This document shows, piece by piece, positions 933-52,783 of a stretch of DNA of 52,783 nucleotides. Both the position numbers and the translations under genes were made by a program. Source of the DNA: Opitutia bacterium (GTDB lineage Bacteria; Verrucomicrobiota; Verrucomicrobiia; Opitutales; T3Sed10-336); assembly GCA_003558065.1 (NCBI GenBank), contig PWMU01000105.1:1-52783 (forward strand), in the 5' to 3' direction. Each line of letters begins with the position of its first letter. Within the stretch, counting starts at the first letter, position 1. The notes beneath the pieces are model-generated. The model was not told the origin of the DNA and made no database searches. It saw only the letters and a program-made list of their open reading frames with translations.

Positions 933-2471
933 TCAAAGCCGCCCGAGCCAGTCACTCAGCGGCCCCTGGAAAAACCCGAGCACCACGGTGGCAACGGCCA
1001 GCCCCCCGAGTATAAGTCGTGCAAGAGGCGCTATTTCCCGGTGCTCCCGCCGGGGTGCCTCCTGCTCGTCCTCGTCGTCAGGCGCTACCTTCCACTCCCG
1101 GAACACCGCCGTCTTGATCCATCCGAAATAATAATAGATCGACAGCACCACTCCGAAAATCGAAACCCCCAGGAGCCAGTACAGCCCGGCCTGGAAGGCC
1201 GCGATAAAAATCAACACCTTCCCGATAAAGCCAGCGAGGGGCGGAATCCCCGCCAACGACCCGAGGCCGATCACCAGCACGACCGCGAGAAAGGGGCGGT
1301 CTCTCGCGAGGTTCAGGTAGTCCTCAAGCTCATCCCCTGTTCCGTCCTCGGGCGAGAGGTGCGCCATCACACCAAAAACAGCAAACGACGCGAGCAGATA
1401 AACGAATAGATAGAACAGCACCGCCCCCTGGGCCCAAGGCACATACAGGGACGCGATCACCCCGACCAGCAGATAACCGGCATGCGCCACCCCCGAAAGA
1501 CCCATCAGCCGCTTCGTGTTTCGCTGCGTTAACGCCGCGATGTTCCCAAACAGGATCGTCAGCGTTGCCAGCACCGTCAACACCGGGACGAGCACCGCCT
1601 CCATAGGCTGGAATACCTTTAACACGAGCGTCAGTAACACCGCGAAGCCGGCGGCTTTCGACCCTACCGCCAGAAAGGCGGTCACGGGTGTCGACGCCCC
1701 CTGGTAGACATCCGGAACCCAGATCTGGAAAGGAAACGCGGCAATCTTGAAAGCGACCCCGGCGATCACCATCACCATTCCGATCAGTGCCAGACCGTTC
1801 TCCGGGTGGTTTTTCAGAAATGCATTCAAGGCCCCGAAATTCATGGCGTCGTCCGACGCGCCCGCGAGAAGGGGGCTTCCGCCAATTCCGTAAAGCAGAG
1901 CGATGCCGAACAAAAGAATGGCCGAGCTGACTCCGCTGAGAATGAGGTACTTAAGACCCGCCTCCAGGGAGATCGACTGGTGACGGAAATAGCTGACGAG
2001 CACGTAAAAACCCACCGTTACGGTTTCCAGCGAAATGAAGAACATCACAAAATGATTACTCTGGGCCAGCAGCATCAACGCCGCCGTCACCACCAGCGTG
2101 ATGTGGTAGAACTCGACTTTCGGCAGCGGCTTGCCCGCCAGAGTGATCGTCCCCAGGTACCCCACCAGCAGGGAGGTCAACAGGAAGAACACCCGCATGG
2201 CCTGCCCGAGTTCATCGTGAAAGAGCATGCCGGCAAACGTCTCCTGGCCGAGAAATCCCCCGCCATCCCGATAAAAGAGCAAAAGCCAGAACAGGACAAG
2301 CAGCTGCCCGAAGATCGCGACACCCGGAATGAGTTTCCGCCGGTGCCGCGGAAAGAGAATTTCCAATACCAGCAACGCCAGCGCGAGAACGCCCAGCGAA
2401 ATTTCCGGCAGAATGGCACTCCACTGATTGGAGGCCGCTATTTCCTTGAATGGGCTCAAAGTGTCGTTCAT
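933..2471 (-). CDS. nuoN: NADH-quinone oxidoreductase subunit N
   Basis: This is a membrane-arm subunit of complex I, one of the three antiporter-like proteins that pump protons across the inner membrane. The 512-residue product is almost wholly hydrophobic, with about 14 membrane segments and typical family stretches (LYGIGGSP near the middle, AHAGYLLVGV, and FIGKVLIFIAAF in the C-terminal third). A charged loop (DDEDEQEAPRREHRE) precedes the last helix. It is the last gene of nuoJKLMN and starts 16 bases after the nuoM stop, so it is almost certainly co-transcribed. Length is normal for the family. Confidence 0.95.
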   Translation of the reverse strand: MNDTLSPFKEIAASNQWSAILPEISLGVLALALLVLEILFPRHRRKLIPGVAIFGQLLVLFWLLLFYRDGGGFLGQETFAGMLFHDELGQAMRVFFLLTSLLVGYLGTITLAGKPLPKVEFYHITLVVTAALMLLAQSNHFVMFFISLETVTVGFYVLVSYFRHQSISLEAGLKYLILSGVSSAILLFGIALLYGIGGSPLLAGASDDAMNFGALNAFLKNHPENGLALIGMVMVIAGVAFKIAAFPFQIWVPDVYQGASTPVTAFLAVGSKAAGFAVLLTLVLKVFQPMEAVLVPVLTVLATLTILFGNIAALTQRNTKRLMGLSGVAHAGYLLVGVIASLYVPWAQGAVLFYLFVYLLASFAVFGVMAHLSPEDGTGDELEDYLNLARDRPFLAVVLVIGLGSLAGIPPLAGFIGKVLIFIAAFQAGLYWLLGVSIFGVVLSIYYYFGWIKTAVFREWKVAPDDEDEQEAPRREHREIAPLARLILGGLAVATVVLGFFQGPLSDWLGRL

Positions 2472-2487
2472 GAAAATCTTTCCGATT

Positions 2488-4125
2488 CTAAAGGCCGCCG
2501 GCCGGGCCGCGTTTCGGCGGAGAGCAACAGGAGACCGGTCCTTCCGCGCGCTCGAAAGAAACCGCCTCGAATTCGCCGTCGTCCCCGGTCACAGACGCCT
2601 CCTCTCCCGGCACAACGATCCGGTACATCGGGGAAACGCTCTCGTCGATCGAGTCGGTTAATGAACGCGGCCACAACCCCACCAGGATCAACACCACCAG
2701 CAGCACCAGCGCCGGCGTTCTCTCATGCCACTGGATGTCGGGAATTCGCTTCCCTTTCGACGCCGATTGAAACGCTTCGGTCGGCTCGCCGAAGAATATA
2801 TTTCCAACGGCACGCAATCCGTAAACGGCGGAAATCACCACTCCGAAGACCGCGGGGATAACCATCCATTCGCGGTACTGCCAGAGGCCGATAAAGACGG
2901 TCAGCTCTCCCCAGAAATTCGCCAAACCGGGACCGGGGAGCCCGATGCTCGCCAGCATGGCCGTCACAAAAAACGCTGCCAGCACCGGCGTATTCCGTGC
3001 CAGTCCCCCCATTTCCCGCATGTCAAAGGTTTCCGTGCGACGGTAAATACAATTGCCCAGCAGAAACAGCAACGCGACGGTCAATCCGTGGGCGAACATC
3101 AGGATAACCGCTCCGCCCACGCCCACCGCGGAAAGACAGGCCAGGCCAAGGAAGCAGTAGCCCATGTGCATCACGGAACTGAAACCGATCATTTGCTTGA
3201 GGTCGCGTTGCGCGACTGTCACGAACCCGATGATGATGACGTTGCCCAGCGCGAGAAGCGCCAGAAAGTACATCCAGTTCTCCGCCCCCTGGGGCAGCAA
3301 GGGAGCGCCTATCTGAATCAGCCCGTACAAGCCGAACTTCTTGAGAACTCCGGCGTGCAGCATGGCCGCCGATGTCGGAGCCGCCCCGTAACCCAGCGCC
3401 GCCCAGGTGTGGAACGGCCACAGCGAAACCAGAATTCCAAAACCGAAGAGCAACAGGGCAAAGGTGTAATTCTGCGCCACCTCGCTGATCGACTCCCCTT
3501 CCAGCGCGGCCTTCAGGCTGATAATATCGAACGACGACGCCCCGCTCTGAACGTATAGCGCGATCAGGCCCGCCAGCGAGAGCAGCGCGCCGAGGGAGAG
3601 ATAAACCGTCAGCTTCATCGCGGCATAATGCCGCTCGCGACCGCCCCAGATGCCGATCATCACGAAGGTCGGGATCAATGCGATCTCGTGGAAGAAATAG
3701 AAGAAAAACACATCGACCGAGGCAAAAACGCCCATCAGCCCTCCCTGCATAATCAGGAGCAAGGCCAGGTATTGGCGCAGGCGCTCCGCCCCGGAAACCA
3801 GCGCGTAAAAGCCCGCCGCAAATCCGACCACTCCCGCCAGCACGAACAGCGGCAGCGATATGCCGTTCAAGCCGAGTTTGAGGGAAATATCGACGATCTC
3901 CAATCCTGTGGGCACCGTGCTCAAGAATGCGTATCCGGTCACCGGATCCGGTGAAAAGGCGATCCAAAGCCAGAGCGCGACCGCAGCCGGAACGAGGAAC
4001 CCGACAAAGGCAATCCTCCGGACAAACGCCTCTCCCAGACTTCCGGAAAACAGCAACAGGATCGTCCCGAAAAGCATCGGGATAAAAATCGCCAGGTGAA
4101 GAAGAAATGGATAGCTCTCAGGCAT
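2488..4125 (-). CDS. nuoM: NADH-quinone oxidoreductase subunit M
   Basis: This is the second antiporter-like proton-pumping subunit of complex I. The 545-residue protein carries typical NuoM sequence: FFFYFFHEIALIPTF around the conserved membrane glutamate, FHTWAALGYGAAPTSAAMLHAGVL, and the conserved LKQMIGFSSVMHMGY segment. The last 50 or so residues are hydrophilic, with an unusual Cys/Pro/Gly-rich end (SCCSPPKRGPAGGL), a little longer than many homologues. It lies 19 bases after nuoL and 16 bases before nuoN. Confidence 0.95.
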   Translation of the reverse strand: MPESYPFLLHLAIFIPMLFGTILLLFSGSLGEAFVRRIAFVGFLVPAAVALWLWIAFSPDPVTGYAFLSTVPTGLEIVDISLKLGLNGISLPLFVLAGVVGFAAGFYALVSGAERLRQYLALLLIMQGGLMGVFASVDVFFFYFFHEIALIPTFVMIGIWGGRERHYAAMKLTVYLSLGALLSLAGLIALYVQSGASSFDIISLKAALEGESISEVAQNYTFALLLFGFGILVSLWPFHTWAALGYGAAPTSAAMLHAGVLKKFGLYGLIQIGAPLLPQGAENWMYFLALLALGNVIIIGFVTVAQRDLKQMIGFSSVMHMGYCFLGLACLSAVGVGGAVILMFAHGLTVALLFLLGNCIYRRTETFDMREMGGLARNTPVLAAFFVTAMLASIGLPGPGLANFWGELTVFIGLWQYREWMVIPAVFGVVISAVYGLRAVGNIFFGEPTEAFQSASKGKRIPDIQWHERTPALVLLVVLILVGLWPRSLTDSIDESVSPMYRIVVPGEEASVTGDDGEFEAVSFERAEGPVSCCSPPKRGPAGGL

Positions 4126-4144
4126 AACGCGATAATTTCAGGGG

Positions 4145-6013
4145 TTATTGAACTCCCTTCACGACAAGCCACATCAACACGACCCCCAGGAAAATCCAGT
4201 ACACGTAGACGTGCAGATTCCCGGTATGCGCGGCCCGGGCCCCGAGACTGAACAAGCCGACCAATCCCGCCGCACCTCGCACGATCAGGCCGGAAATCAG
4301 AATGTGATCAATAAAATTAAGGAGGCTGGAAAAACGCTGCTGTACGTTCACCACGTACCACTCGTAAACGTCGTCAAAGAAGAACCTGGCCGAGAGGAAT
4401 CCGTGAAGACCGGGAAACTGCTTTTCGAGACGGTCCTCCCGCGCCCCGACTCCATAAAACAGCCAACCCGCGATCAGGCCCGCCAGCAGCACCGCTACCG
4501 AAACGCCCGCCACCAACGCAAAGTCGGCGCCTTCAGCGTGTGGGACTTCCTGCATAATCCCGTCGAAGATCGCCGGGTGCATGAAGTCGTATCCGGCGAC
4601 CACCGAGAAGATCGCGAGAATCACGAGGGGCGCCGTCATGATCCAGTTGTTCTCCTTCGCGTCACGCGACGCCCTGGTCTTCGGCTCGCCGAAGAAAGCC
4701 GCCAGCCAAAGACGGGTCATATAGAACGCGGTCAATAGCGCGGTCGCCGCGAGGATGAGGAAGAGCGCGCTGTTGTTCTCCCAGGCCAGGTAAAGGATGG
4801 CGTCCTTGCTGAAAAAGCCGGCCAGACCGGGCATCCCCACCAATGCGAGAACGCCGACCGTGAAAGCGGCGAACGTAACGGGCATCTTCCGCCACAGCCC
4901 GCCCATCCGGTAAATGTCTTGCTCGTGATGGCAGGCGTGAATGACCGACCCGGCCCCGAGAAACAGCAACGCCTTGAAGAATCCGTGAGTCACGAGATGG
5001 AACATCGCCGCCCCGATCCCGGCCTGAATGGCGGTTCCGGCATCTCCGTCAATCACCAGAGAGCCCAGCCCGAAAGCCGCCACCATATAACCGAGTTGCG
5101 ATATCGTGGAATAGGCCAGGATCTTCTTGATATCCGTCTGCGTAATGGCGCACAACGAACCGAAAATAGCCGTGGCGGCCCCCACCCACATAATCCAAAC
5201 CATCGCTTCCGGAGGAATCAGGAAATAAATCCGGCACAGCAGGTAAATCCCCGCCGCCACCATCGTCGCCGCATGAATCAGGGCGGAGACCGGCGTCGGG
5301 CCCTCCATCGCGTCCGGAAGCCATACATGCAGGGGAATCTGCCCGGACTTGCCGAGCGCACTGCAGAACAGGAGCAAGCCGATCCCGACGTGCAGGATAT
5401 CCGGGTTCGCCTCCACCAGCGCGGCCATTTCAAAAAGGTTGAGCGTCTCGAAATGCCAGTAGCTCCAGATGATACCCAGCAGGAAGCCGAAGTCCCCGAG
5501 GCGATTGACGATAAACGCCTTTTTCGCCGCCTCGGAGGCCGCGGGCTTGTGGTAATAGTGGTTGATCAACAGGAACGAGCTCAACCCCACCAGCTCCCAG
5601 AAGATGAAAATCATGATGAGATTGTTCGCGAAAACAATGCCCATCATCGAAAACATAAAGAGCGATAATCCGGCGAAATAACGCGCCTTCCCCGGATCTT
5701 CCTTCATGTATCCGAGACTGAAAATGTGTATCAGAAACCCCACCACCGCGACGACGAACAACAGAAGCGCCGCCAGATCGTTGAAATAGAATCCCATCGA
5801 CACCGTGTAGTCGCCGAAGGTCATCCATTCATAGGAAAACTCCTCGCGAATGTTGCCGAATATCAGGTACAACGAACCGAGCAGAACCACCGAGGCGGCC
5901 GCGATCGACACCGCCGCGGCAATCTCATGCCGGCGGCGAAAAAAGATCCCGATGACAAGCGCCGACAAAAACGGCACCACCAGGAGGGAGACGATCAACT
6001 GTTCGTTGCTCAT
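4145..6013 (-). CDS. nuoL: NADH-quinone oxidoreductase subunit L
   Basis: This is the distal antiporter-like subunit of complex I, which in known structures carries the long lateral helix along the membrane arm. The 622-residue length is normal. Signature stretches are IFIFWELVGLSSFLLI, GKSGQIPLHVWLPDAMEGPTPVSALIHAATMV and DIKKILAYSTISQLGYM, with the conserved membrane Glu and Lys residues. The C-terminal third contains amphipathic and hydrophobic segments consistent with the lateral helix and its anchor. The gene starts one base after the nuoK stop, which suggests translational coupling. Confidence 0.96.
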   Translation of the reverse strand: MSNEQLIVSLLVVPFLSALVIGIFFRRRHEIAAAVSIAAASVVLLGSLYLIFGNIREEFSYEWMTFGDYTVSMGFYFNDLAALLLFVVAVVGFLIHIFSLGYMKEDPGKARYFAGLSLFMFSMMGIVFANNLIMIFIFWELVGLSSFLLINHYYHKPAASEAAKKAFIVNRLGDFGFLLGIIWSYWHFETLNLFEMAALVEANPDILHVGIGLLLFCSALGKSGQIPLHVWLPDAMEGPTPVSALIHAATMVAAGIYLLCRIYFLIPPEAMVWIMWVGAATAIFGSLCAITQTDIKKILAYSTISQLGYMVAAFGLGSLVIDGDAGTAIQAGIGAAMFHLVTHGFFKALLFLGAGSVIHACHHEQDIYRMGGLWRKMPVTFAAFTVGVLALVGMPGLAGFFSKDAILYLAWENNSALFLILAATALLTAFYMTRLWLAAFFGEPKTRASRDAKENNWIMTAPLVILAIFSVVAGYDFMHPAIFDGIMQEVPHAEGADFALVAGVSVAVLLAGLIAGWLFYGVGAREDRLEKQFPGLHGFLSARFFFDDVYEWYVVNVQQRFSSLLNFIDHILISGLIVRGAAGLVGLFSLGARAAHTGNLHVYVYWIFLGVVLMWLVVKGVQ

Positions 6014-46176: not shown

Positions 46177-47682
46177 ATGGCCACGGACAAATCAACCGCT
46201 CCTTCCATGGAGTCCATCGTCTCTCTCTGCCGCCGCCGCGGCTTTATTTTTCAATCATCCGAAATTTACAGCGGCATCAACGGCTTTTTCGACTACGGGC
46301 CAATGGGCGTGGAACTGCGCCGCAACATCAAGGACGCCTGGTGGAAGGATTTCGTGCAGCGGCGCGACGACATCGTCGGTCTCGACTCCAGCATCATTCA
46401 TCACCCGAAGACCTGGGAGGCCTCGGGCCATGTCGACAACTTCACCGACCCGCTCGTGGACTGCAAGGTCTCCAAACAGCGCTACCGCGCCGATCAGCTC
46501 TTCTTCGCGCCGGTCGTCGTGGACGGCCGGACCGCCGGTTACGTCTCGGCGCTCGAAAGCGACAACGTCGAGGCGGAACTGCGGGAAGCCGCGGAAAAGT
46601 TGAAACGCAAAAAGGCGATCCAGGGGGAACTCGGGCCCGTCCGGCCGCGCGAGTTCACCGAAGCCACTCCCGAAGAGATTCGCCTGATCCCCTCCCCCGC
46701 CACGGGCGAGCCGGGCAGCCTCACCCCGCCCCGCTCGTTCAACATGATGTTTGAAACGCAGGCAGGGGCCCTCCGGGACGGTTCGGGTCTGGTCTATCTC
46801 CGCCCGGAGACGGCCCAGGGGATTTTCATCAATTTTAAGAACGTCGTCGACAGCGGCAGGTCCAAAATACCCTTCGGTATCGCCCAGATCGGAAAAGCCT
46901 TCCGCAATGAGATCAATCCCCGGAACTTTATTTTCCGCTCGCGCGAGTTCGAGCAAATGGAGATTGAATACTTCATCTCGCCCGACGAGGACTGGCAGAG
47001 CCGGCACCGCGAGTGGATCGATACCGGCAACTCGTGGCTGGAAAGTATCGGCATTCCCGCATCGGCCTTGAGCGAGTACACCCATCCGAAGGAAAAGCTG
47101 TCTCACTACTCCAAGGGGACGGTGGACATCATGTACGCGTTCCCCTTCGGCGTCCAGGAACTGTGGGGGTTCGCCGCACGGGGCGATTTCGACCTGATGC
47201 AGCACCAGAAGTTCAGCGGCAAGTCGATGGAAATCTTCGACGAGGCTTCGAAGAAAAAATTCATCCCTCACGTCATCGAACCGAGCGTGGGCGTGGACCG
47301 GATCCTCCTGGCCGTCCTCTGCTCGGCTTATGCCGAGGAGGAGGTCGGGGGTGAAAAGCGGACGATCCTCAAATTCAGCCCCCGGGTCGCGCCGATCAAG
47401 GTGGCGGTTTTCCCGCTGGTCAAGAATAAGCCGGAACTGGTCCGGCTCGCCGAGGAGCTTTACCGGAAGCTCCAGCGCCACTACAACGTGTTTTTCGACA
47501 CCTCGGGCGCCGTGGGCCGGCGTTACCGGCGCATGGACGAAGCGGGCACGCCGTATTGTGTCACGTTCGATTTCGACTCCCTCGAAGACGGTTCCTTCAC
47601 GCTGCGCGAGCGCGATACCATGGAGCAGAAGCGGATGAACGAGGAGGACCTCTTCCGCCTGCTCGACGAGACCGTTTACTGA
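46177..47682 (+). CDS. glyQS: Glycyl-tRNA synthetase, dimeric (alpha-2) type
   Basis: This class II synthetase charges tRNA-Gly. The 501-residue protein is the single-chain form found in many bacteria, archaea and eukaryotes, not the alpha/beta type of E. coli. Motif 2 region: [16 protein letters not shown] and [28 protein letters not shown]. Motif 3 region: [15 protein letters not shown]. The C-terminal anticodon-binding domain shows [18 protein letters not shown] and ending [13 protein letters not shown]. No T-box leader is visible. A terminator-like stem with eight T follows. Confidence 0.94.
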
Positions 47683-48079: not shown

Positions 48080-48970
48080 ATGGCGCGTAAAATCAGTTTT
48101 CTCAATTACAAGGGAGGAGTAGGCAAGACTTCTCTGATCGTAAACCTCGCCTCGTGTCTCGCGTTGGAAGGCAAGCGTGTCTTGTTGTTCGACCTGGACA
48201 CACAGTCGAACGCAAGCATCTGGCTGCTGCGTCTGGACCGCTGGAACCAGATCAACAGCTCGGGAGAGGGAGCGGTTTATTCCATTTTCAATCCCGGAAC
48301 CACCACCATCGCCGATTGCCTCGTGCGGGACGTCGTCGAGAACAAAGACGGCGAAAAACTGATTCCGGGGCTGGACCTCATCCCCACCACCTTCAATCTT
48401 GTCGACCTCGAAAGCGATCTGGAGACCGGGAATCCGGAACAACCCCCGTACTCCATTTTCCGGGAACAGCTTGAGGAAATCGAGGATGAGTACGATTTCA
48501 TCCTCTTCGACTGTCCGCCGAACATCCTCCGGGCTTCTCAGTGCGGTGTCTACAGCAGCAACGAGATCTACGTGCCCTCCAACCCGGACGCCCTCAGTCT
48601 GATCGGATTCACCCTGCTCGTCGAGAAGCTGCAGAAATTCCACCGGGCCTCCGCGAGTTTCCGGAAAAGCGGAATGGGCGTTCCCGCGGAGATCCGGGGC
48701 ATCATCTTCAACTCCATCAAGGGCAACACCGATATCGAGGTTCCCAAGATCAGGATGCAGCTGCGCATGAACCAGTTTCGCAGCCAGAAGAAGGTCTCTT
48801 CCCAGGCGAAGATTTTCAGTACCCAGATCCGGGATGCCAACATCGTCCGCAGAGCGGTCACTCTCGGTCTCCCCGTTCCGCTCGTGGGTGAACAGCGAAG
48901 TGAAGGCGAGAGCGTCATCACCGACTACAAGAAACTCGCGTTGGAATTGATTGATCACGAACCCAATTAA
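48080..48970 (+). CDS. Orphan ParA/MinD-type ATPase
   Basis: The 296-residue product is a deviant Walker-A ATPase: KGGVGKT at 11-17 with the signature Lys11, the A' box LFDLDTQSNAS at about 36-46 and Walker B DFILFDCPP near 135-142. Such proteins dimerise on ATP, bind DNA or membrane, and position plasmids, chromosomes, chemoreceptors or carboxysomes. There is no ParB, no parS repeat and no plasmid gene beside it, so it is not a normal partition locus. It lacks the MinD-like amphipathic C-terminal helix; its end is KKLALELIDHEPN. The next gene starts 10 bases after its stop, implying one transcript and related function. Confidence 0.88.
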   Translation: MARKISFLNYKGGVGKTSLIVNLASCLALEGKRVLLFDLDTQSNASIWLLRLDRWNQINSSGEGAVYSIFNPGTTTIADCLVRDVVENKDGEKLIPGLDLIPTTFNLVDLESDLETGNPEQPPYSIFREQLEEIEDEYDFILFDCPPNILRASQCGVYSSNEIYVPSNPDALSLIGFTLLVEKLQKFHRASASFRKSGMGVPAEIRGIIFNSIKGNTDIEVPKIRMQLRMNQFRSQKKVSSQAKIFSTQIRDANIVRRAVTLGLPVPLVGEQRSEGESVITDYKKLALELIDHEPN

Positions 48971-48980
48971 CCTTCCTGCC

Positions 48981-50036
48981 ATGTCCGAATCAGAGGATCC
49001 TAAGTCCAAGAAGTACACTCCGGCCCATTGGGACAAACTGCGTGCCAGCTTCCAGAGCTCCATGCTCGTTGACACACGCCTTTCCAGCCTGGCTGAAAGC
49101 CTGGATACGGAAAGCTGGCCCCTGAAGGGAAAAGATGAAACCCCCGCCAAGTACATCGATCTTTCGTTTGAAGAGCTTGAGGAAACCCAGGAACTGGCGG
49201 GGCACCCTCACCGTATCGAGCTCCTCATCGACATTCTGGACGGCACGCTTGCTTTCGACGATCCGTTCGGCGACATGGTTCAGGCTGAAGAAGCCAGCGC
49301 TTCAGAAGACAACGACGTCCTGAAGAACCTCGCCCGGTTGCAGATTCCCCCGGAATACCCGATTTCTCTGACGAATCTCTCGAAAGAGTCGCTCCGCCTC
49401 TGCGAGAACCAGCAACTGAAGACCCTGCAGGAATTCGCCGATTTCTCGCAGAACATGGCCCAGCATATCGTCCTCGCCGGAGACTTCCGCAAGTTGCTGA
49501 ATTCCCTCATTTACGTTGACGAGAATACGATCGCCACTTTCCTGCCGTTCCGCCCCGGGAGCAAGGGCCTCCACCTGGCTGAAGCGATCGGGTTCGCCAT
49601 TAACAACGTCGAAACCGAAGAACGCCTCGCCCTGTACCGAAAGTACGGGGGACGACTTGAGGAGGATGAGCAAGGCCTCGCGGCAAAGGTGCCCGGTCAG
49701 CGAGTCGGCGAGGTCGAGAAGGATTTGAAACAACAGGTCCGAACCCTGTTCGAGTGGTTTGATAAAGAAAGGGAAGACCTCGAATCAATGATCCACTACG
49801 GCCAGTCGCTCGATCGTTTCTTTATTCCGATCAATGACCCCGTCAGGGAATTGATTGCCACCCGAATCGTCGGTGATTCTCTGAAGAAACCGGCCGGACC
49901 CGCGAGACCGGAGGCCCCTGCCGAATCAAAGACCCCGCAGGGGTCGGCCGGAGGAGCTTCGGAGGGTCTTCTCGATAAAGTGACCGGCTTCTTCAGGAAA
50001 ACCGCCGAGTTCTTCAGAACACTTCTCCGGAAATAG
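48981..50036 (+). CDS. Unknown protein with amphipathic C-terminal helix, partner of ParA-like ATPase
   Basis: The 351-residue product matches no family I recognise. The first 110 or so residues are acidic and polar; about 115-300 looks like a folded alpha-rich domain (LARLQIPPEYPISLTNLSKE, FADFSQNMAQHIVLAGDF, EERLALYRKYGGRLEEDEQG). A Pro/Ala/Ser-rich linker then leads to the last 23 residues, GLLDKVTGFFRKTAEFFRTL followed by LRK. Those alternate Phe/Leu with Lys/Arg as membrane-binding amphipathic helices do. No signal or true membrane segment is present. Its place 10 bases after the ATPase suggests it is an adaptor or cargo that couples the ATPase to the membrane. An ATG at 48951 within the ATPase end is possible but less likely. 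Confidence 0.72.
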   Translation: MSESEDPKSKKYTPAHWDKLRASFQSSMLVDTRLSSLAESLDTESWPLKGKDETPAKYIDLSFEELEETQELAGHPHRIELLIDILDGTLAFDDPFGDMVQAEEASASEDNDVLKNLARLQIPPEYPISLTNLSKESLRLCENQQLKTLQEFADFSQNMAQHIVLAGDFRKLLNSLIYVDENTIATFLPFRPGSKGLHLAEAIGFAINNVETEERLALYRKYGGRLEEDEQGLAAKVPGQRVGEVEKDLKQQVRTLFEWFDKEREDLESMIHYGQSLDRFFIPINDPVRELIATRIVGDSLKKPAGPARPEAPAESKTPQGSAGGASEGLLDKVTGFFRKTAEFFRTLLRK

Positions 50037-50057
50037 CCTGTCGCCGCTTTGTTGTTG

Positions 50058-50089
50058 GGATTTTTTGATTTCCAAGTATAATGGAGACT
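50058..50089 (+). promoter_or_regulatory. Promoter with perfect -10 box, possible leaderless start
   Basis: TATAAT (50077-50082) is a perfect -10 box. A weak -35 (TTGTTG, 50052-50057, spacing 19) lies upstream. Transcription would begin at about 50089-50090, which is where the ATG at 50090 begins. The coiled-coil gene may therefore be read from a leaderless mRNA independently of the two genes before it. Confidence 0.5.
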
Positions 50090-50695
50090 ATGAACAGCCG
50101 GCCATTGCCTCCACTGAAGCGTAAGCTAAGCCTCCCCAGGCTGGCGGATTACTCGGCGCAGCTCACGCGCGAGTCCCGGCGCTCGGTCGAAACCATCCGG
50201 TCCCTGACCCGCTCGGAGCTGGGAGAAGCCAAGCCTTTGGCTTCGACGGATCTCGAAGCTCTTGAATCGTCGCTCAGGGAGCTTGAAGATACCCTGAACG
50301 AACGGGAAAAGGCTCTCCAGGAATCCGAAGCCCGCCTTCAGGAGAAGGAACGGGACATCTGGGAAACCGAAGCGTTGATCAAAGCCCGCGAAAAGCTTCT
50401 CCAAAGCAACCAGCAAAACGCTTCATCGGGCACGGGCGAGCTCTCGCAGGAGTCAAAACAGGCCATCGAGGAATGGAAAGCCGAACTGGAGAAACAGGAA
50501 AAAGTCCTCCAGCAATCCAAGGCCTCGCTCAAGGAGCGTGAAGAATTTCTCGACGCCAGCGAAAACACTCTCTTCGACAAATTCCAGCAGCAGCAGGAAG
50601 AGGAAACCCGCCTGGAACAGATGAGGGAGGAATTGGAGTTCCGCAAACAGGAACTCGACCGCCGCGAAAAGGAACTGGCCGAGCGGGAAAAGTAG
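50090..50695 (+). CDS. Coiled-coil protein with basic N-terminus
   Basis: The 201-residue product begins with a basic, Pro-rich tail (MNSRPLPPLKRKLSLPRL) and then, from about residue 50 to the end, is an almost unbroken coiled coil rich in Glu, Lys, Gln and Leu. A related pattern occurs twice (EREKALQESEARLQEKER, then EKQEKVLQQSKASLKERE), suggesting an internal duplication separated by a short Asn/Ser/Gly hinge. An ATG three codons upstream (50081) lies inside the -10 box. Proteins that activate ParA-like ATPases often do so with a basic N-terminal tail, so this could be the ATPase stimulator or a scaffold of the same system. Function is inferred only. Confidence 0.72.
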   Translation: MNSRPLPPLKRKLSLPRLADYSAQLTRESRRSVETIRSLTRSELGEAKPLASTDLEALESSLRELEDTLNEREKALQESEARLQEKERDIWETEALIKAREKLLQSNQQNASSGTGELSQESKQAIEEWKAELEKQEKVLQQSKASLKEREEFLDASENTLFDKFQQQQEEETRLEQMREELEFRKQELDRREKELAEREK

Positions 50696-50837
50696 AAGCG
50701 GGTTTGCCGCGCGCTGCTTGCGGGCCAGGGCCTGCCGGCTTTTTTCCCCCGCAGCTCCCTCCGGACAAAGGAACTCCTGAATCGTCCGCGGCAGGTCCGG
50801 CGCAGCATATCCCGCGTAGAGCCCGGGCCGGCCCGAC

Positions 50838-51110: not shown

Positions 51111-52783
51111 ATGACTCTCCTGTTCCAGACATTCCTCGCGCTGATCCCGATACTCTCGGTCCTGTTTTTCCTCGTTATCCTGCGCTGGCCCGCGACCCGG
51201 GCGATGTCTATCGCCTTCGCGGTCACGGCGCTCGTGGCCCTGACCCTTTGGGGCGTCCCCTTCGTCCGGGTGGCCGCATCCACGGTGGAGGGACTGATTA
51301 TCGCCCTCTCGATCCTGTACATCGTCTTCGGCGCCGTCCTGCTCCTCAACACCCTGAAGGAATCGGGCGCGGTAAGCGCCATCCGGCGAGGGTTGCTCGA
51401 CGTATCTCCGGACCGCCGCATTCAGGCCATCATCATCGCCTGGCTCTTCGGCGCCTTCATCGAAGGCGCCTCCGGATTCGGCACGCCCGCGGCGGTGGCC
51501 GCCCCCCTGCTGCTTGCCATCGGTTTCCCCGCGATGGCCGCGGTGATGGTCGCCCTCATCATCCAGAGCACCCCGGTCTCCTTCGGTGCCGTGGGCACGC
51601 CCATTCTGATCGGCGTGGCAACGGGCCTCGGCGAGGCCTCGATCGTCGTCGAGCGGATTTCCCAGCTCGGGCTCACCCAGGCCGAGTACATCTATGGCAT
51701 CGGCGTACGCGTCGCCCTCTTCCACGGCATCATCGGCACCTTCATTCCCCTGGTCATGGTGGCCGCGCTTACCCGCTATTTCGGCGAGAGAAAATCGTGG
51801 CGGGAAGGCTTTGCCATCTGGCGCTTCGCCCTCTTTGCCGGGCTTTGTTTTACCGTGCCCTACATGTTGACCGCCCTCGTGCTCGGTCCCGAGTTTCCCT
51901 CCCTTCTCGGCGGCCTCATCGGGCTGGCCCTGGTCGTGACGGCGGCACGCAAAGGCGTTCTCAAACCCGAAAAAAACTGGGATTTCCCTCCCAGGGAAAC
52001 CTGGCCCGCTCTCTGGATGGGAACCCTGAGCGGGGAAGTCTCCGCGGGCCGCAACAACATGAGCCTGATACGCGCCTGGTTCCCCTACGTGCTCGTGGGC
52101 CTCCTGCTCGTCCTCACCCGTCTCGAAGCGCTTCCGGTCAAGGGGTGGCTCCAGGCGGGCAATATCCGGTGGCCGGAGATTTTCGGAAGCGACATCTCCG
52201 CCGCGATCAACCCGCTCTACCTGCCCGGCGCGGTCTTCGTCACCGTCGTGCTCCTGACGTTCTTCATCCAGAAAATGAATCTGCGGGAACTCGGGTCCGC
52301 CGCCGGGGTTTCCGCGAAGACCCTCCGCGGCACCGCCCTCGCCCTCGCGTTCGCCGTGCCGATGGCACGGGTCTTCCTCAACTCCAACGTGGAAGCCGAA
52401 GACATCGCCAGCATGCCCATCGTGCTGGCCGAAGGCATGGCCGCCCTGGCCGGGGGCACCTGGCCCCTGTTCTCGCCGATCGTCGGCGCCCTCGGCGCGT
52501 TCATCGCCGGCAGCAACACCATCAGCAACATGATGTTCTCCCTCTTCCAGTTCAGCACCGCGGAACAGATCGGCATTTCAGGGGCGATCATCGTCGCCCT
52601 CCAGGCGGTCGGGGGCGCCGCCGGCAACATGATCTGCGTGCACAACGTCGTTGCCGCCTCCGCCACCGTCGGACTCAACGGCCGCGAGGGCTCGCTCATC
52701 CGCATCGTGCTCATCCCCATGACCTACTACCTCCTCGCCGCCGGCCTGCTCGGCACCCTCGCGATCTACGTGCTGGGACTGAG
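51111..52783 (+). CDS. L-lactate permease, cut by window edge
   Basis: The frame is open for 557 codons to the window end. It encodes a highly hydrophobic protein with about 12-14 membrane segments, matching the LctP/GlcA family that imports L-lactate, D-lactate or glycolate with protons. Family stretches include [91 protein letters not shown] and [22 protein letters not shown]. Family length is 550-600 residues, so only the C-terminal tip should be missing. It may depend on nearby regulators outside the window. Confidence 0.92.

Follow-up and report, generated by a model that had tools for sequence, protein, structure and literature searches.

Three adjacent genes of an Opitutia bacterium, named here A, B and C, form a conserved set that on balance probably constitutes an order-specific, three-component positioning system of the ParA/MinD type, with A as the ATPase, C as activator and scaffold, and B as membrane adaptor. 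The genes lie in a stretch of 52,783 nucleotides (the window, meaning the whole stretch analysed), which is contig C138 of a 4.1-Mb draft genome (G000). All three are arranged head to tail on the forward strand, with 10 bases between A and B, as the original prediction had noted, and 44 between B and C; the set is flanked on one side by the gene for a class II tRNA synthetase (46177-47682) and on the other by that for an L-lactate permease, starting at 51111 (Table 1). For B the ATG at 48981 was taken as the start; the mechanically defined reading frame begins upstream, at a TTG (48951). The terminator-like stem behind C is a pattern match only, and the 5 such sites around it, against a shuffle mean of 5.4, represent no excess. 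Elsewhere in the window, three genes for proton-antiporter/complex I membrane subunits follow one another on the reverse strand (936-6013), and the first 8 kb carry a strong AT skew. ParA-like ATPases with diverse unknown partners are already a known kind of system, and in the excerpted text of PMC10241942 many of them are termed orphans for want of an identified partner. Three features of the present set look new: the family to which B belongs, the order-wide module itself and the MinD-like tail on the partner; in a literature search covering titles and the beginnings of abstracts, no description of an A/B/C module was recognised.

Table 1. Coordinates of the three genes and associated features (window numbering, except where a locus is given)
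Feature	Position	Strand	Description
Gene A	48080-48970	+	ParA/MinD-superfamily ATPase, 296 aa, KGGVGKT
Gene B	ATG 48981 to 50036	+	351 aa, all-helical (AlphaFold2), family limited to the order in the genomes sampled
C-terminal amphipathic / MinD-like tail of B	49974..50033	+	predicted helix 332-350
Gene C	50081-50695	+	coiled-coil protein, 204 aa
N-terminal region of C, residues 1-56	50081..50248	+	net +5, includes RPLPPLKRKLSL; candidate ATPase-activating peptide
Terminator-like stem directly 3' of C	50720..50735	+	pattern match only
Protein C7	L051:8667-9554, L054:10167-10868, L059:7771-8505, L060:11252-11986

The conservation of the set was assessed at 80 loci encoding B, the best 80 of 94 relatives obtained by scanning species genomes with one peptide pattern. 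Gene A was located directly upstream of B at 77 of these best 80 loci (partial and frame-broken copies of A counted), the exceptions being one locus at a contig edge and two (L178, L179) without A in the fetched stretch. Gene C was directly downstream of B at 67 of the same 80, with B standing at a contig edge at 5 more, and was undetected at 8 of the 75 loci having sequence there (L163, L166, L168, L171, L172, L177, L178, L179). One of these eight loci (L166) belongs to Coraliomargarita, and four are labelled Puniceicoccaceae. At L178 and L179, both from metagenome genomes labelled Puniceicoccaceae, B was found with neither A nor C alongside. This conservation of gene order, for which the original prediction had proposed a check in related genomes, exceeds chance by far; with C undetected in 8/75 and A undetected in 2/79, the parts are nevertheless not strictly inseparable. 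The cultured species Cerasicoccus maritimus and C. frondis are among the carriers of the module (L108, L109).

Within the order, B was present in 20 of 53 genomes (that of the window and 52 relatives), and each of the 21 B genes in these carriers had A directly upstream. A sample of 387 genomes from the phylum contained B in 41, every one of them from the order of the window (Opitutales). Matches to A at E <= 1e-20 occurred in 21 of the 53 genomes, namely the 20 carriers of B and one further genome (G051), whose matching protein scores 9.1e-51 with AAA_31, a level typical of canonical ParA genes. Paralogues of A without B were seen at four loci (L049, L050, L053, L067). The mean pairwise difference across 57 loci was 0.30 for A, 0.57 for B and 0.59 for C, and the divergence of the three was correlated (r 0.83-0.87); vertical inheritance alone would produce such a correlation, which limits its weight as evidence for joint function. 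A plasmid origin of the module was dropped, since a search of 72,556 plasmid records with B gave zero matches at E 0.01. Clustering of the neighbouring genes at the best 80 of the 94 loci returned recurrent neighbours in up to 36 loci and none that was constant; we infer that their recurrence reflects relatedness of the genomes. No cargo gene common to all carrier families was found beside the module. A protein of about 433 amino acids, with a signal-like N-terminus and without a Pfam match (for example L162:7686-8978, forward strand), is encoded on the same strand at a median of 0.8 kb after B at 32 of the best 80 loci, and may be an additional part of the operon in one family.

Gene A encodes the deviant Walker-A ATPase that had been recognised from the sequence at the outset, and it matches the Pfam family AAA_31 (1.8e-36). 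Its active site comprises a deviant Walker A motif (K11-GGVG-K16-T17), the aspartates D38 and D40, and the Walker B residue D144; K11, K16, T17 and the three aspartates are among the residues that never vary in an alignment of 40 A proteins (39 from the 71 extracted and the one from the window). The presence of KGGxGKT, of the D-x-D pair and of the Walker B aspartate places A, by sequence, in the ParA/MinD superfamily. In sequence comparison its best matches among solved structures were Soj/ParA, and the PHROG model 'ParA-like partition protein' covered residues 1-292 of 296 (4.1e-45); a match of residues 3-43 to the PADLOC model PDC-M28B (2.2e-7) was read as the shared P-loop and discounted. 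Net charge in the aligned proteins had a median of +6 over residues 196-275 and -3 over residues 1-195, and the positive region fits DNA binding, without proving it. No MinD-like tail was detected on A by the loose pattern described below (0/71, two of the 71 being frame-broken).

A is distinct from the housekeeping ParA. A tree built from 62 proteins set 31 A-type sequences (23 of the 71 A proteins, the one from the window, and seven that are paralogues or diverged copies) apart with support 100/99 from 30 canonical ParA proteins of the order (AAA_31 at 1e-45 or better, one per genome from 30 genomes), the separating branch being long and the root a midpoint only. At the site where the canonical ParA of the same genome has IPRSIRLSESPSFGK, A has IRDANIVRRAVTLGL. 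Besides A, 19 of the 20 carriers contain an AAA_31 match of 1e-45 or better, the exception (G006) being 67% complete. The description of A as an ATPase without ParB held for its neighbourhood; elsewhere in the genome, ParB was found on contig C84 (one match) and the canonical ParA on contig C179. ParB was likewise found in 19 of the 20 carriers and was missing from one genome that is 82% complete (G001), indicating that the module is additional to ParABS. Around parB at L210, L211 and L212 (genomes G000, G041 and G027) there was no KGG-type P-loop ATPase within 5-7 kb; the parAB pair seems to be split in these three genomes, with a canonical ParA match elsewhere.

A second A-type gene in the genome of the window (G000:C58:546) is 62% identical to A, has no adjoining B and groups in the tree with A genes from the family to which the window belongs. 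By sequence, this B-less second ATPase is a lineage-specific duplicate in that family. The B-less A-type genes at L049:546-1484 (on G000:C58), L050:9021-9968 and L067:8788-9729 encode proteins with a common ending, VAGF or ASGF, and no neighbour was common to all three. A further protein without a Pfam match, C7, occurred in 4 of the 53 genomes and always adjoined an A-type gene; it carries MRKFKVST or a similar motif near its start and ends near LPTIDDL, and in L051 and L054 its gene stands between a diverged A-B pair and a protein-kinase gene, the latter recognised by Pfam in L051 and by similarity in L054.

The assignment of the second protein to no recognised family was upheld. B had no match to Pfam, PHROG or PADLOC models, and its only NCBIfam match was the TagK domain NF033419 (E 0.0023, 18.7 bits against a cut-off of 40), which across 74 B proteins matched 4 at E up to 0.1, the best at 0.002. 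A T6SS link through TagK was rejected on this sub-threshold score and on the finding of VipB in 0 of the 53 genomes of the order, which also rules out T6SS as an obligatory cargo. A Pfam scan of the 74 B proteins returned 16 scattered families, the best of them T2SSF (5.5e-4, 4 members) and HEAT_2 (0.011, one member), which were taken as noise, as were the designed armadillo proteins that the B profile matched in the PDB at E 0.18 or worse. AlphaFold2, run with 74 sequences, predicted an all-helical protein (mean pLDDT 89.1, pTM 0.64) with confidence over approximately residues 14-300; residues 1-205 modelled alone reached a mean pLDDT of 75, below that of the full-length model, a drop suggestive of B folding as a single unit. 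Foldseek comparison with the PDB, using either the whole model or residues 1-205, gave no match at E <= 0.001, nor did a comparison of B with viral proteins, and VIA-align returned a best Z of 3.4 over 46 residues and no Z of 5 or more. That no similar solved structure emerged from these comparisons does not prove a new fold. At one locus (L175) a single reading frame of 469 amino acids spans B and C; a fusion was discarded there, the tail and stop codon of B being present in another frame, which points to a frameshift or sequence error.

Beyond a linker, B ends in short basic-aromatic tails such as KKKGFFGRFFGR or KKTGFLGKLFGR. The C-terminal end of MinD is its membrane anchor, and E. coli MinD, which ends in EEEKKGFLKRLFGG, fits the strict pattern derived for these tails. 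Among 76 tails (75 of the 80 loci plus the window; the B proteins of the other five loci were excluded, two as broken or fused and three as cut), 41 matched the strict pattern and 55 the loose one, both patterns having been composed after the tails had been seen. Neither pattern occurred in 343 control reading frames; these controls come from clustering the ORFs at the same loci, C proteins among them, and probably contain shadow ORFs too. The tail of the window's own B is a longer amphipathic helix and matches the loose pattern only. In hydrophobic moment, however, only 19 of the 76 tails exceeded their own shuffles at 0.05; by a lipid-binding score used without a control, all 76 lay above the lower mark and 46 above the higher. 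The likeness to the MinD end argues, with fair strength, that the tail may bind the membrane. It is short in most members, and a short tail could bind protein rather than lipid.

The third protein proved to be of the coiled-coil sort, as proposed. Its NCBIfam matches were weak and of coiled-coil type (FlbB at 1.7e-4, 21.5 of 110 bits; SMC at 0.0013), and a PADLOC match to JetC (0.002) was read as coiled-coil likeness; neither B nor C reached the cut-off of a known unrelated family, whereas reaching one would have spoken against the original prediction. The hydrophobic periodicity of C peaked at 102 degrees in both halves, a level reached by 18 and 17 of 1000 shuffles. In an alignment of 38 of the 66 extracted C proteins plus that of the window, the N-terminal part was net positive in 35 of 39 and the remainder net negative in all 39. 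According to the excerpted text of PMC7993993, a basic N-terminal stretch is common to activators of the ParB, MinE and ParG types and to PomX, and N-terminal enrichment in positive residues is also noted for TlpT and McdB; the same text describes PomY, a second activator of PomZ, as lacking a basic N-terminus, so this mark of activators is not universal. By analogy, C is likely an activator of A.

In gene make-up the module resembles PomXYZ, which positions the division site in Myxococcus xanthus and in which, as the excerpt of PMC7993993 has it, a well-conserved ATPase acts with two diverging partners, one of them a coiled-coil protein whose N-terminal peptide is basic. The module shares the conserved ParA/MinD ATPase and the two diverging partners, with C corresponding to the coiled-coil partner by its charge and helical periodicity and, by analogy, perhaps in activation; the likeness is one of gene make-up and charge layout, and the MinD-like tail on B sets the module apart. 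That tail recalls MinCDE, yet it sits on the partner and not on the ATPase. McdAB, which positions carboxysomes and other microcompartments, likewise pairs a ParA-like ATPase with a cargo partner, and the McdB N-terminal extension is described as rich in positive residues (PMC7993993, excerpt). The chemoreceptor-array systems PpfA/TlpT and ParC also have a ParA-like ATPase outside ParABS with a partner of its own, as far as the excerpts of PMC7993993 and PMC10241942 go. With ParABS itself A shares superfamily and active site, whereas no ParB lies beside A, B and C match no ParB model, the canonical ParA and ParB are encoded elsewhere in the genome, and the A-type proteins fall outside the canonical group. 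The module would work like Pom or Mcd, which does not imply membership of either.

In the proposed mechanism, A would be an ATP-switched ATPase that is probably bound to the nucleoid, a location suggested by its ParA active site, its net-positive C-terminal region and its lack of a membrane-anchor-like tail. C would act as activator and as scaffold of a cluster, its coiled coil presenting the basic N-terminal peptide to A, an arrangement that has been reported for PomX, ParB and MinE. B would serve as the helical adaptor: its MinD-like tail would hold it at the inner membrane, and through contacts among the three proteins it would connect A and C with a cargo or site associated with the membrane. 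The layout of ATPase, activator and adaptor raised by the original prediction thus gains sequence support from the N-terminus of C and the tail of B, while two of the cargo types it named can be discounted as obligatory, namely chemoreceptors and carboxysome-like microcompartments. The eight genomes of the family to which the window belongs, its own included, yielded no CheW, and the gene was found in 7 of 20 carriers against 12 of 33 non-carriers, so that it is absent from 13 of the 20 carriers. For microcompartments the nearer set gave a strong contrast: among the 53 genomes, 18 of 20 carriers and 8 of 33 non-carriers had BMC shell genes, the genome of the window had one such gene, and the contrast agreed within families f3, f5 and f11; the two carriers without them (G009, G029) have a diverged B only. 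A system that places microcompartments in the manner of McdAB would account for this, yet it is a highly improbable explanation of the module: in the larger sample of 387 genomes BMC genes were found in 25 of 41 carriers and PF00936 was lacking in 16, single-contig genomes among them (G136, G168, G183, G311, G314), and in the 18 BMC-positive carriers the BMC matches lay either on a different contig or at a distance of over 22 kb. Five genomes of the order have BMC genes without B, one of them (G189) in f11. The patchiness of BMC and CheW indicates that neither microcompartments nor chemoreceptor arrays are an obligatory cargo. The co-occurrence of module and BMC genes in the nearer set is strong and non-obligatory, and perhaps reflects genome size or lifestyle.

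Division or other envelope machinery is a first guess at the cargo, since MinC was found in 0 of the 53 genomes of the order, that of the window included (6 of 14 controls were positive), and the alternatives tested are patchy or absent. In a narrower form of the positioning reading, a special case of it, the module would regulate the division site or nucleoid occlusion: a nucleoid-bound A and a membrane-bound B would sense where chromosome and membrane meet and place or restrain the FtsZ ring, in a Pom-, MipZ- or Noc-like way of working that does not imply homology to the partners in those systems. The missing MinC, the pairing of one component that looks DNA-bound with one that looks membrane-bound, and the Pom-like combination of ATPase, coiled coil and second partner (PMC7993993, excerpt) all favour such a regulator, but no division gene was recognised next to the module, and in 33 of the 53 genomes neither MinC nor B was detected, which shows that the module does not replace Min generally in the order; we regard this form as rather unlikely. 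An accessory role in chromosome segregation, in which A would be a second ParA acting on ParB/parS while B and C fasten the origin at the membrane or pole, would suit the Soj/ParA and PHROG matches of A; the separate canonical ParA in the same genome, the presence of canonical ParA in genomes without the module, and the exchange of the canonical sequence motif for that of A all weigh against it, and its probability is low. It is lower still for an old operon whose products act separately and share no machine. The loci with B and no A, those without detected C and the B-less paralogues of A would be explained in this way, yet the A-B pair is adjacent in all carrier families seen, diverged copies too, which is hard to maintain without shared function.

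The positioning system outlined above remains the preferred reading. Its most specific version is tentative and, as a whole, doubtful: an undescribed machine in which a nucleoid-riding ParA drives membrane-anchored B and C, with the MinD-type anchor on the partner, and places a division or polar envelope machine in the MinC-less Opitutales. A defined set of three genes, one of them without a recognised family, offers a testable entry to cell organisation in an order in which none of the 53 genomes searched yielded MinC. Moreover, nucleoid-based and membrane-based positioning would be joined in one system if the partner of a ParA-type ATPase bears a tail of the membrane-anchor kind.
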